Assembly (NCBI RefSeq): GCF_003073135.1
Contig: NZ_PGDQ01000026.1
Coordinates: 1 to 44,783, forward strand
DNA: 44,783 bases
Direction of reading: 5' to 3'
Source: Euzebya rosea
GTDB lineage: Bacteria; Actinomycetota; Nitriliruptoria; Euzebyales; Euzebyaceae
Positions 1 through 44,783 of this stretch are shown piece after piece (position 1 is the first letter of the stretch; every line of letters begins with the position of its first letter). The notes under the pieces were generated by a model. That model did no database searches, was not told where the DNA came from, and saw only the letters and a program-made list of their open reading frames with translations. The position numbers and the translations under genes were made by a program.

Positions 1-72
1 CCCCCGGCGCTCGGCGTGGGCGCCCACGATTGGCGTCCCCCGGCGCTCGGCGTGGGCGCCCACGATTGGCGT
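1..72. repeat. 36-bp tandem repeat, two perfect copies
   Basis: Bases 1-36 and 37-72 are identical. A third copy would begin with the C-run at 73-77 but diverges at once. Each copy holds a perfect 14-bp palindrome, CGTGGGCGCCCACG, at 15-28 and 51-64. The array begins at base 1, so more copies may lie outside. No spacers, so not a CRISPR array. Probably an intergenic palindromic repeat at a contig edge. Confidence 0.9.
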
Positions 73-78
73 CCCCCT

Positions 79-41686: not shown

Positions 41687-41739
41687 TTGACGTCGTGGAT
41701 GTCACACCCCACACTCATGGTGTACGAACACATGTTCGA
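41687..41739 (+). promoter_or_regulatory. dnaE2 promoter with LexA box
   Basis: TTGACG (41687-41692), 17-bp spacer, CACACT (41710-41715). ACGAACACATGTTCGA (41724-41739) immediately follows and fits TCGAAC-N4-GTTCGA at 11 of 12 positions; CGAAC/GTTCG is a perfect dyad. Mycobacterial dnaE2 is a known LexA target. Confidence 0.75.
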
Positions 41740-41810
41740 TACGCGATGTTCGTCCCCGACTCCTTCGGGTCGTCCTTCCCCGTCGCGCCGACCGACCAGG
41801 ACGCCTCGCC

Positions 41811-44783
41811 ATGACCGCCGACTTCGTGCACCTCGCATCCAGGACCTGCTACTCGCTGCGTGACGGGGTGATCCGCCCCCGCGAGCTCGCCAGGGCCACC
41901 GCCACCATGGGGGTCGGGGCCGCCGGGTTCGCCGACCGCGCGGGCCTGTACGGCGGGGTGCGGGTCGCCCAGGCCTGCGCGGCGGAGGGGGTCCGTCCCA
42001 TCTTCGGGGCCGACCTCGCGCTGCATCCCGAGGACGACCGTCCCGGCTGGGGGATCAGCCGCGCGTCGGCCAGCGGGATCGGTCGGGCCATGGGGCCGGG
42101 GTCGGGCCAGGCGTGGCTGGAGGACGACGCCCCCCGCGTCACGCTGATCGCTGCCGACATCGACGGGTTCGCGACCCTCAACCGGACCGTCACCGAGCAC
42201 CACCTGTCCTCGGTTCGGTCCGACCCGCACCTGCGCTGGGATGCCGCCAGCCAGCGGCTCGGTGCCACCGACGGGCTGTTCGTCATGCTGACCGACCGGT
42301 CGCCCGTGGGTCGGCTGCTGGGGGAGGGGCGGGGCGACGCCGCACGGGTCGAGGCACGTCGCTGGATGGACGTCGTGGGGCCCGACCGGCTGCTGGTCGG
42401 GGTCACCCACCACCTGGCGCCCGGCGACGACGACGTGGCTCGCCGCACCTTCGCGCTGGCCGACGAGCTGGGGCTGCGGGCGGTCGCCCACCAGGCCGCC
42501 CGGTACCTGCGTCGCGAGGACGCCAGGGTCGCCGACGTCATGGACGCCGTGCGCCAGCAGGTGCCGCTGGCCCAGCACCACTCCAGCCGTCGCAACGCCG
42601 AGGGGTACCTCAAGACCCCCGAGGAGATGGCCAGGGTCTTCGCCGAACGGCCCGATGCGCTCGCCAACACCATGTGGGTGGCGGATCGTTGCCACGTCGA
42701 CATGGGCCTGGGACGGCTGCGGGTGCCCGACTTCGCCTCTGCCTCTCCCGAGCAGGCCGCCGATCCCGGATGGGCGCTGGCCGAGCTGCGCCATCGCTGC
42801 GAGACCGGCATCAAGGAACGGTTCCCGGCGGTGGAGGACATCCACACCGACCTGCTGGACCGCGAGATGGACATGGTCCGCCAGCTCGGGCTCGCCCCCT
42901 ACTTCCTGACCGTCGCCGAGGTCATGGGACGCATCCGCGCCAAGGGCATCCTGGCCGCCTGCCGTGGGTCGGCCGCCGGGTCGCTGATCACCTATGCGCT
43001 GCGGATCTCCGACGTCGACCCGATCGCCCACGACCTGGCGTTCGAGCGGTTCATGAACCCCTACCGCGACGAGCTGCCCGACATCGACATCGATGTGGAG
43101 TCGGCCCGCCGCGAGGACATCTACCGCGACCTGCTGGACACCTACGGCGAACACCGCGTCGCCTGCGTCTGCATGGTCGAGACGTTCAAGGCCCGCATGG
43201 CCATCCGCGAGGTCGGCAAGGCCATGGGCCTGCCTGCCGGTGAGGTCGACTACATCGCCAAGTCCTTCCCGCACGTCCGGGCCGGCGACGTCCGCCCGGC
43301 GCTGGCCCACCTGCCCGAGCTGCAGGGCCTCAACATCGACTCCGGCCACCTCGCGCTGCTGTTCGACGTGGTCGAGCGGATGGACGGGTTCCCCCGTCAC
43401 GTGGCGCTGCATCCCTCGGGGGTGCTGCTGGCCGACGCGACCCTGCGCGACATCGTGCCGATGGAACGGTCGGCCGCCGGGTTCGCGATGGCGCAGTACG
43501 ACAAGGACGACGTCGAGGCCCTGGGGTTGTGCAAGCTCGACGTGCTGGCGGTCCGGATGCTCTCGAGCATGTCCCACTGCGTGGAGGAGGCCCGGCGCAC
43601 CCGCGGCATCGACCTGGACTTCGACGACGTCCCGTGGAACGACGAGGGCACCTACGAGCTGATCCGCTCGACCCGGACCCTCGGCATGTTCCAGATCGAG
43701 TCTCCCGGCCAGCGCGAGCTGATCGGCAAGTTCCAGCCCGAGCACCAGGGCGACCTGGTCGTCGACATCTCCCTGTTCCGGCCCGGCCCGGTCAAGGGCG
43801 ACATGATCAAGCCGTTCCTGCGGCGACGCCACGGGCAGGAGGGCAGCGGGGTGCCCCACCCGCTGCTGGAGCGTGCGCTGGGCGAGACCTACGGCGTGAT
43901 CGTCTACCACGAACAGGTGATGCGCTGTGTGGCCGCGGTCACCGGCTGCGACCTGGCCGAGGCCGACCTGGTCCGTCGCCGGCTGGGCGACCCGACCCAG
44001 AAGGCCGAGCTGGAACGATGGATCACGTCGGGGGCGGCCGCCCGAGGCATCGCCCCGGACGTCGCCGAGTGGCTGTGGAACGCGCTCAGCCAGTTCGCCT
44101 CCTTCGGGTTCTGCAAGGCACACGCAGCGGCGTTCAGCGTGCCGACCTACCGCTCGGCATGGCTGAAGGCCAACCTGCTGCCGGAGTTCATGGCCGGGGT
44201 GCTGACCCACGACCCCGGCATGTACCCGCGGCGGCTGATCCTCGACGACGCCCGCCAGTTCGGCGTCGCGATCCTGCCGCTGGACGTCAACGCCTCGGCC
44301 AGGGACTACCGGGTCGAGGTCGTTCCCGAGGACGAGGCGCTGGCGCTGCTGGGGGTGCGACGTCCGACCGAGCTGGGCGGCCGTGGTGAGCTGCCCCGTG
44401 GCTGGCGCTGGGACGGCGACCGGATCGTGCCCTCCGCTGGCTTCGACAAGGGCGCGGCGACACCGGGGTGGCGCTACGGCATCCGGTTGGCCCTGCAGGA
44501 CGTCGAGCGAATCGACGACCACATGATCGACTCGATCCTGGCCGGCCGGCCGTTCACCTCCATCGAGGACCTGCGCCTGCGGGCCCGCCTGTCCCAGCCG
44601 GTGGTGGAGTCGCTGGCCCACTCGGGTGCGCTGGATGCGATCGGTGGGGTGGGCCTGAAGGAGGATCGAACCCCGAGCGTCCACGCGAGGGGTGAGGACC
44701 GGACGGAGGGCCGGGGGTCTGGGGGCGAAGCCCCCAGTGTGAAGGGCCTGAAGGAGGATCGAACCCCGAGCGTCCACGCGAGG
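41811..44783 (+). CDS. dnaE2: Error-prone DNA polymerase III alpha subunit, DnaE2/ImuC type (3' end missing)
   Basis: At least 991 codons from ATG 41811, open to the last base. Translesion polymerase of the SOS mutasome. N-terminal PHP region (residues ~1-75: SLRDGVIRPRELA, GLYGGVRVAQAC) with degraded metal motifs. Polymerase core: ACRGSAAGSLI-type segment, ELPDIDIDVE (catalytic Asp pair, near residue 425), LCKLDVLAVRML (third Asp), FQIESPGQRELI, HEQVMR, QFASFGFCKAHA. A helix-hairpin-helix region ends SLAHSGALDAIGG. After that comes repeat-encoded sequence. No imuA/imuB seen. Partner polymerase DnaE1 must lie elsewhere. Confidence 0.9.
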   Translation, partial: MTADFVHLASRTCYSLRDGVIRPRELARATATMGVGAAGFADRAGLYGGVRVAQACAAEGVRPIFGADLALHPEDDRPGWGISRASASGIGRAMGPGSGQAWLEDDAPRVTLIAADIDGFATLNRTVTEHHLSSVRSDPHLRWDAASQRLGATDGLFVMLTDRSPVGRLLGEGRGDAARVEARRWMDVVGPDRLLVGVTHHLAPGDDDVARRTFALADELGLRAVAHQAARYLRREDARVADVMDAVRQQVPLAQHHSSRRNAEGYLKTPEEMARVFAERPDALANTMWVADRCHVDMGLGRLRVPDFASASPEQAADPGWALAELRHRCETGIKERFPAVEDIHTDLLDREMDMVRQLGLAPYFLTVAEVMGRIRAKGILAACRGSAAGSLITYALRISDVDPIAHDLAFERFMNPYRDELPDIDIDVESARREDIYRDLLDTYGEHRVACVCMVETFKARMAIREVGKAMGLPAGEVDYIAKSFPHVRAGDVRPALAHLPELQGLNIDSGHLALLFDVVERMDGFPRHVALHPSGVLLADATLRDIVPMERSAAGFAMAQYDKDDVEALGLCKLDVLAVRMLSSMSHCVEEARRTRGIDLDFDDVPWNDEGTYELIRSTRTLGMFQIESPGQRELIGKFQPEHQGDLVVDISLFRPGPVKGDMIKPFLRRRHGQEGSGVPHPLLERALGETYGVIVYHEQVMRCVAAVTGCDLAEADLVRRRLGDPTQKAELERWITSGAAARGIAPDVAEWLWNALSQFASFGFCKAHAAAFSVPTYRSAWLKANLLPEFMAGVLTHDPGMYPRRLILDDARQFGVAILPLDVNASARDYRVEVVPEDEALALLGVRRPTELGGRGELPRGWRWDGDRIVPSAGFDKGAATPGWRYGIRLALQDVERIDDHMIDSILAGRPFTSIEDLRLRARLSQPVVESLAHSGALDAIGGVGLKEDRTPSVHARGEDRTEGRGSGGEAPSVKGLKEDRTPSVHAR
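44652..44783 (+). repeat. 39-bp direct repeat (93-bp period) inside the dnaE2 frame
   Basis: Copies at 44652-44690 and 44745-44783 are identical, 54 bp apart. The period is divisible by three, so each copy reads GLKEDRTPSVHAR. The spacer holds CTGGGGGC-GAA-GCCCCCAG (44719-44737), a very stable hairpin with the GCGAAGC mini-loop. The window ends at the last base of copy two. Confidence 0.9.

Follow-up and report, generated by a model that had tools for sequence, protein, structure and literature searches.

A probable in-frame insertion of a small hairpin element array in a DnaE2-type polymerase gene of Euzebya rosea

Mycobacterial interspersed repetitive units (MIRUs) are repeats of the Actinomycetota, with units of 40-100 bp that form tandem arrays of variable copy number, lie mostly between genes, and sit in or next to stop codons. 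Rickettsia palindromic elements (RPEs) are small dispersed palindromes that are also found in frame and without stops inside conserved protein genes; in one tested case, the RPE in gmk, the element was translated and active (PMC2229807; PMC10969869). Small inverted triplications consist of direct, inverted and again direct copies of a short target with spacers between them (PMC13334657). We describe here an element in a polymerase gene of Euzebya rosea that, like RPEs, is small, palindromic, dispersed, and in frame within a conserved gene.

The array in dnaE2 and its surroundings

The window is the entire contig C26 (NZ_PGDQ01000026.1, 44,783 nt) of a 5.5 Mb draft genome in 40 contigs. At its right end, a polymerase gene runs into a tandem repeat with the following features.

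41811..44783, plus strand: N-terminal portion (PHP, alpha NTPase, finger, HHH_6) of a C-family polymerase of the DnaE2 type, without a stop up to the window end
44651..44658, plus strand: T, the 8-bp GGGCCTGA, left edge of the insertion, which starts each unit
44651..44743, plus strand: first complete 93-bp unit, encoding GLKEDRTPSVHARGEDRTEGRGSGGEAPSVK
44659..44713, plus strand: left module L, made up of GGATCGAAC, hairpin 1 (44671-44692, CCCCGAGCGTCCACGCGAGGGG) and GTGAGGACCGGACGGAGGGCCG
44714..44743, plus strand: right module H, the GGGGTCTGGGGGCGAAGCCCCC hairpin (stem 44719-44737, GAA loop) with tail AGTGTGAA
44744..44783, plus strand: second unit, of which the contig contains only the initial 40 bp

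The initial annotation had reported a palindromic repeat with a 93-bp period spanning 44645-44783. The repeat is real, and the end of that span was right, but the exact period holds only from 44651 up to 44783, with two head-to-tail copies at the window end. A direct repeat, given as 39 bp, is present; its copies measure 47 nt at 94% identity and include an identical stretch of 40 bp (44651-44690 = 44744-44783). The GCGAAGC-type hairpin was correctly recognized and has a perfect 8-bp stem around a GAA loop (CTGGGGGC-GAA-GCCCCCAG, 44719-44737). Each unit carries two hairpins, CCCCGAGCGTCCACGCGAGGGG and CTGGGGGCGAAGCCCCCAG, and, taken as a whole, the unit shows moderately stronger folding than shuffled sequence (z ~ -2). 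As annotated, the polymerase frame has no stop through to the window end. It is the only open one among the three forward frames of the unit, and the TGA within T is out of frame. The encoded peptide is hydrophilic and of low complexity (GRAVY -1.4). On the minus strand, a 1020-aa open frame (41715-44777) lies opposite dnaE2 and runs through the repeat. It is this long because all three reverse frames of the unit are open and, together with the high GC content, this most likely makes it a by-product rather than a gene.

Contig C7 opens with an exact copy of the 133-bp periodic tail of C26 (C7:1-133), so this tail is not a chance feature of one contig end. T recurs at the right edge of the array (C7 126-133), after which C7 leaves the repeat in frame (...APSVKGLMVGGGGRVKTRRDLLLEVGERW...), enters the OB domain and continues to a normal stop. 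About 320 polymerase residues follow the array on C7, which rules out a C-terminal extension of the polymerase. The closest genome of the genus, G003 (95% identical over a 384-residue query), has a dnaE2 gene that reads SGALDAIGGVGLVVGDGGRAKTRRDLLLEV with no insert, and its empty site is ...GGAGTGGGGTTGGTGGTCGG. In the alignment to G003, C26 extends up to 4346 and C7 takes over from 4349 as one uninterrupted stretch; unique dnaE2 sequence borders the repeat on both sides, synteny carries on at both flanks, and there is no stop or frameshift across ~1270 codons. Because the two contigs are collinear with one intact G003 gene, the insert must be internal and the contig end must be a gap at the array.

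Judged by this alignment, the array is an internal, exact in-frame insertion absent from the sister, and it would add at least two copies, or at least 62 residues, in the loop between the helix-hairpin-helix (HhH) and OB regions. By the same comparison, the contig end is a gap within a tandem array inside dnaE2, and the gene appears to stop at the window end because the short-read assembly broke at the repeat. Several parts of the initial annotation are revised by this. SGALDAIGG, read as the C-terminal motif of the polymerase, instead closes the HHH_6 region (~873 of the 1047 positions of NCBIfam's DnaE2 model), and the repeat placed at the 3' end of dnaE2 is internal, with the OB part and the C-terminus on C7. 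The proposal of a mobile palindromic element adding 31-residue units holds as to the in-frame insertion of a dispersed element, but the C-terminus is not extended. Likewise, a comparison with the sister DnaE2 did reveal a protein lacking the insert, at an internal site rather than at the C-terminus.

The smallest array compatible with both contig ends has two units, in which case the ends overlap by 72 bp. The periodic tails measure 111 bp at several contig ends, 133 bp at the dnaE2 end of C26, and 77 bp in another pair, so no single k-mer size accounts for them and only n >= 2 is safe. The true copy number in dnaE2 is at least two and may be higher; we infer both it and the exact C26/C7 join from collinearity. 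At least 10 further contig pairs in the same genome join at tandem arrays likewise. Another tandem array, with 2.1 copies of 36 bp, occupies the left end of the window (1-77). Its 77 bp overlap exactly with the right end of contig C19, which puts C19 to the left of C26 and reveals a second repeat at which the assembly broke. Further gaps at tandem repeats were seen between the left end of C15 and the right end of C33, where the translation of the 69-bp unit, DPLDPDTDDDGLTDGEE, resembles a calcium-binding type repeat, and between the right ends of C4 and C7 (15-bp unit).

The complete sister protein scored 680.5 against NCBIfam model NF004225 for the error-prone polymerase DnaE2 (ImuC), below the curated cut-off of 939 and narrowly above its score against NF004226 (673.4). 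The error-prone polymerase model is thus its best NCBIfam fit but hardly a better one than the DnaE model, so we use the careful name DnaE2-type, which is the best label rather than a proven identity. A paralogue at C19:8930 is likely the more typical DnaE. In an AlphaFold model of the C-terminal part of the sister protein, the insertion site falls in a predicted coil between helices 406-422 and 437-449. Since overall confidence in this model was low (mean pLDDT 56.5), we used only the local coil assignment, where pLDDT was ~75 and the flanking helices were confident. Among relatives, the loop between the HhH region and the next helix varies from 0 to ~30 residues of unrelated sequence. The dN/dS ratio relative to G003 is 0.09 before the insert and 0.12 after it, with no frameshift; these values mostly reflect time before the insertion and are therefore not proof that the present protein works.

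A third species (genome G002) also has an insert read in frame in this DnaE2 loop (L217, around 1500-1584), with a 10-bp inverted repeat, GTGCGTGTCC...GGACACGCAC. This insert belongs to a different dispersed palindrome family (GCGTGTCC-CTCAGTC...GGACACGC), further copies of which were found in the G002 genome (E = 1.6e-8, 3e-8, 3.6e-7, and weaker), mostly in a terminator-like position between convergent genes. That a single loop carries two unrelated palindromes within one genus points to a site that is permissive for extra residues. A separate DnaE2 loop, located before the HhH region, holds a GGGGAACCTGACC-type tandem repeat in G002 (L018) and three SGCSCGHQCPDPHPVG-type copies in G020 (L020).

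Relatives of the element at gene ends

A genome search for the repeat, suggested with the initial annotation, found it again on C7 and found relatives at about 12 other loci; absence of the repeat from the genome, which that annotation named as refuting its reading, is therefore not what was observed. By pattern searches of the genome, on which all our element counts are based, the right module H is dispersed: its hairpin (GGGGCGNAGCCCC) occurs at 20 places including the array copies, versus 4 for a reversed control pattern. The L-H layout is repeated at the ~12 other loci, where the left module of the intergenic relatives (GGAtCGAAC, a hairpin, then GTGAGGcCCGGAGG) shares the layout of L in dnaE2. 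Nearly all H copies lie no more than ~70 bp behind a stop codon and are oriented with the gene, and none except the dnaE2 copy was found within a gene. Related elements also form tandem arrays, with units of 93-97 bp.

At gene ends, the layout is T - L - T' - H - T. Here T stands for the last bases of the gene including its stop codon, which are usually repeated after H, and T' for a reverse-complement copy of the gene end that is often present to the left of H. Examples are L123 (rpsC, C3), L124 (C5), L132 (C18), L134 (C20), L213 (C4), L140 (C17/C31) and, in the sister genome, L204. The direct target copies range from 5 to ~40 bp among loci. Four sites are empty in G003, namely dnaE2, rpsC (C3) and the C5 and C18 loci. 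At other loci G003 shares the element, with one unit more at C1:12k and one unit fewer at C9/C34. The G003 ortholog of C1:107k (L180) bears, at the corresponding gene end, a distinct short array of hairpins (GGGCCTGATGCGCCCCTTCGGGGC, ~25 bp tandem), each unit of which contains the gene end with its stop codon.

At 9 of 14 loci, the 7-10 nt to the left of H matched the end of the upstream gene exactly in reverse complement. Summed over the 14 loci, the inverted-copy match was 93 versus 67.9 expected when gene ends were permuted, and none of 200000 permutations scored as high, although this test is descriptive, since the loci were noticed before testing and the boundaries were set by eye. Unlike at those nine loci, the inverted target copy in the dnaE2 unit is at background level (4 nt).

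Beyond this genome, the H hairpin was present with at most one mismatch in 12 of 396 Actinomycetota genomes, mostly from one genus whose copies carry a different left module, GTCCGGCGTTTGAGGACGAG. An exact, longer form of the hairpin was found in four database genomes. We considered a phage or plasmid origin and rejected it: phages gave no match to the repeat, and plasmids matched the hairpin core alone, in two Streptomyces records. A known RNA family was likewise ruled out, as Rfam returned only a neighbouring tRNA and one sub-threshold chance match at the array and related elements. IS200/IS605-type Y1 transposases (PF01797) were absent from both this genome and G003 while being detected in control genomes, and the analysis identified no mobilising enzyme for the element. 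Literature searches on the origin of MIRUs, on Streptomyces repeats and on Euzebya repeats returned nothing directly useful.

Origin of the insertion

We consider it very probable that a small bipartite hairpin element of a dispersed family (~85 bp plus the 8-bp target repeat GGGCCTGA) inserted in frame into the interior of dnaE2 and was amplified into a head-to-tail array with a 93-bp period. The best reading is a small palindromic element, akin in kind to RPEs and MIRUs, that is tolerated in a permissive linker. After divergence from the G003 lineage, one copy would have inserted into dnaE2 at GGGCCTGA, which is similar to the gene ends occupied by its relatives. Replication slippage, made possible by the direct repeats and hairpins, would then have multiplied the unit, as the tandem form and the copy-number differences from the sister suggest. 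With a unit of 93 = 3 x 31 bp and a reading frame free of stops, translation would continue through the array and add at least 62 residues, hydrophilic and probably unstructured, to a loop whose length varies in all relatives. Survival of the insert would be explained by this stop-free length divisible by three and by a loop that seems to tolerate extra residues. With unit length fixed modulo 3, later changes in copy number would keep the frame as well. The insert is presumably neutral or nearly so, tolerated rather than useful.

An assembly mis-join, in which an unrelated repeat was attached to the end of dnaE2, had been offered initially as the alternative. In its favour, the feature is found at the end of one contig and its sequence recurs at the end of a second. 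However, C7 holds exactly the missing remainder of dnaE2 in frame, both contigs follow one sister gene with unique dnaE2 flanks on either side, and the ten or more other contig pairs meet in the same manner; a mis-join is extremely improbable. Should the insertion be genuine, it might still be the first decay step of a dnaE2 that was already a pseudogene or encoded an inactive enzyme. DnaE2 polymerases are often dispensable, and a long repetitive insert in a conserved polymerase would fit such a loss. The uninterrupted ~1270 codons, the dN/dS of ~0.1 on both sides (mostly divergence that predates the insertion) and the confinement of the insert to a loop of variable length argue otherwise, and we regard decay as unlikely. 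The opposite notion, that the units are functional, for example as a longer linker altering the clamp or partner contacts of the polymerase, draws on the two species with independent in-frame palindromes in the same loop. Yet that loop varies in length and sequence in all relatives and may simply be permissive, the sister species manages without the array, and nothing shows a benefit, so that a function appears more doubtful still than decay.

A more serious competitor dispenses with a mobile element and treats the array and its relatives as local products of template switching at hairpins, followed by slippage. The exact inverted gene-end copies left of H at 9 of the 14 loci, with their excess over permuted gene ends, are in its favour, and a DUP/IN/DUP arrangement with a spacer is a described outcome of replication errors (PMC13334657). 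A single cut-and-paste enzyme would not be expected to leave direct copies ranging from 5 to ~40 bp; these unequal target repeats and the inverted copies speak against a standard cut-and-paste transposase and for template switching. However, unrelated loci share similar L and H modules that the empty sites lack, which requires part of the sequence to have come from elsewhere, and the dnaE2 copy has no clear inverted target copy. We hold purely local template switching to be possible but considerably less likely than insertion of a dispersed element. Somewhat more tentatively again, a hairpin element might settle at gene 3' ends, copying its target directly and inverted as it does so (T - L - T' - H - T), spread without a transposase through template switching guided by hairpins, and occasionally land in genes, where it survives only in frame, as in dnaE2. 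Copying of the target in this layout would let the host gene keep its stop codon.

The locus, which lies outside Rickettsia, suggests that selfish-looking palindromic repeats can occupy a DNA polymerase and leave its frame intact, and one DnaE2 loop appears to have been struck twice, in different species and by unrelated repeat families. For studying the origin of such elements, the copies at gene ends, with their direct and inverted target copies and with empty sites in a 95%-identical sister, offer an unusually clean set. When a polymerase seems truncated or extended in a draft genome, the cause can be a gap that the assembly left at a repeat read in frame.

Comparison with described repeats

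Several kinds of dispersed repeat resemble the element in part. Like REPs, its relatives are dispersed extragenic palindromes, but the absence of a Y1 transposase from this genome and G003 rules out a REP/RAYT system. Direct copies of 5 to ~40 bp and a lack of terminal inverted repeats do not agree with a MITE. GC-rich bipartite intergenic repeats of Actinomycetota, for example behind Streptomyces genes (...GTCCGGCGTTTGAGGACGAGGCC...GGGGGTCTGGGGGCGGAGCCCCC), share the same H hairpin but have another left module and, at the inspected loci, no direct gene-end copies except simple repeats. Small inverted triplications have an inverted target copy between two direct copies, an arrangement that is clear at 9 of 14 loci here but not in dnaE2; the spacers L and H of the element are, in addition, conserved between loci.

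The likeness to RPEs extends to behaviour: the same element occurs at several unrelated loci, and its insertion in a conserved gene keeps the frame and is absent from a close relative. RPEs, however, are 105-146 bp long and form one long stem-loop with terminal inverted repeats, whereas the dnaE2 element has two separate hairpins, and its unit ends are not complementary. Unlike RPEs, the family also forms head-to-tail arrays, and most copies sit just behind stop codons. This last arrangement, tandem units of 93-97 bp beginning behind a stop codon, agrees with the general description of MIRUs; the likeness is one of layout between sequences that probably differ. Strong GC hairpins, an inverted target copy at many loci and a copy inside a polymerase gene set the element apart from MIRUs. 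By the tests made, the element appears nearest in behaviour to RPEs and MIRUs and a member of neither.
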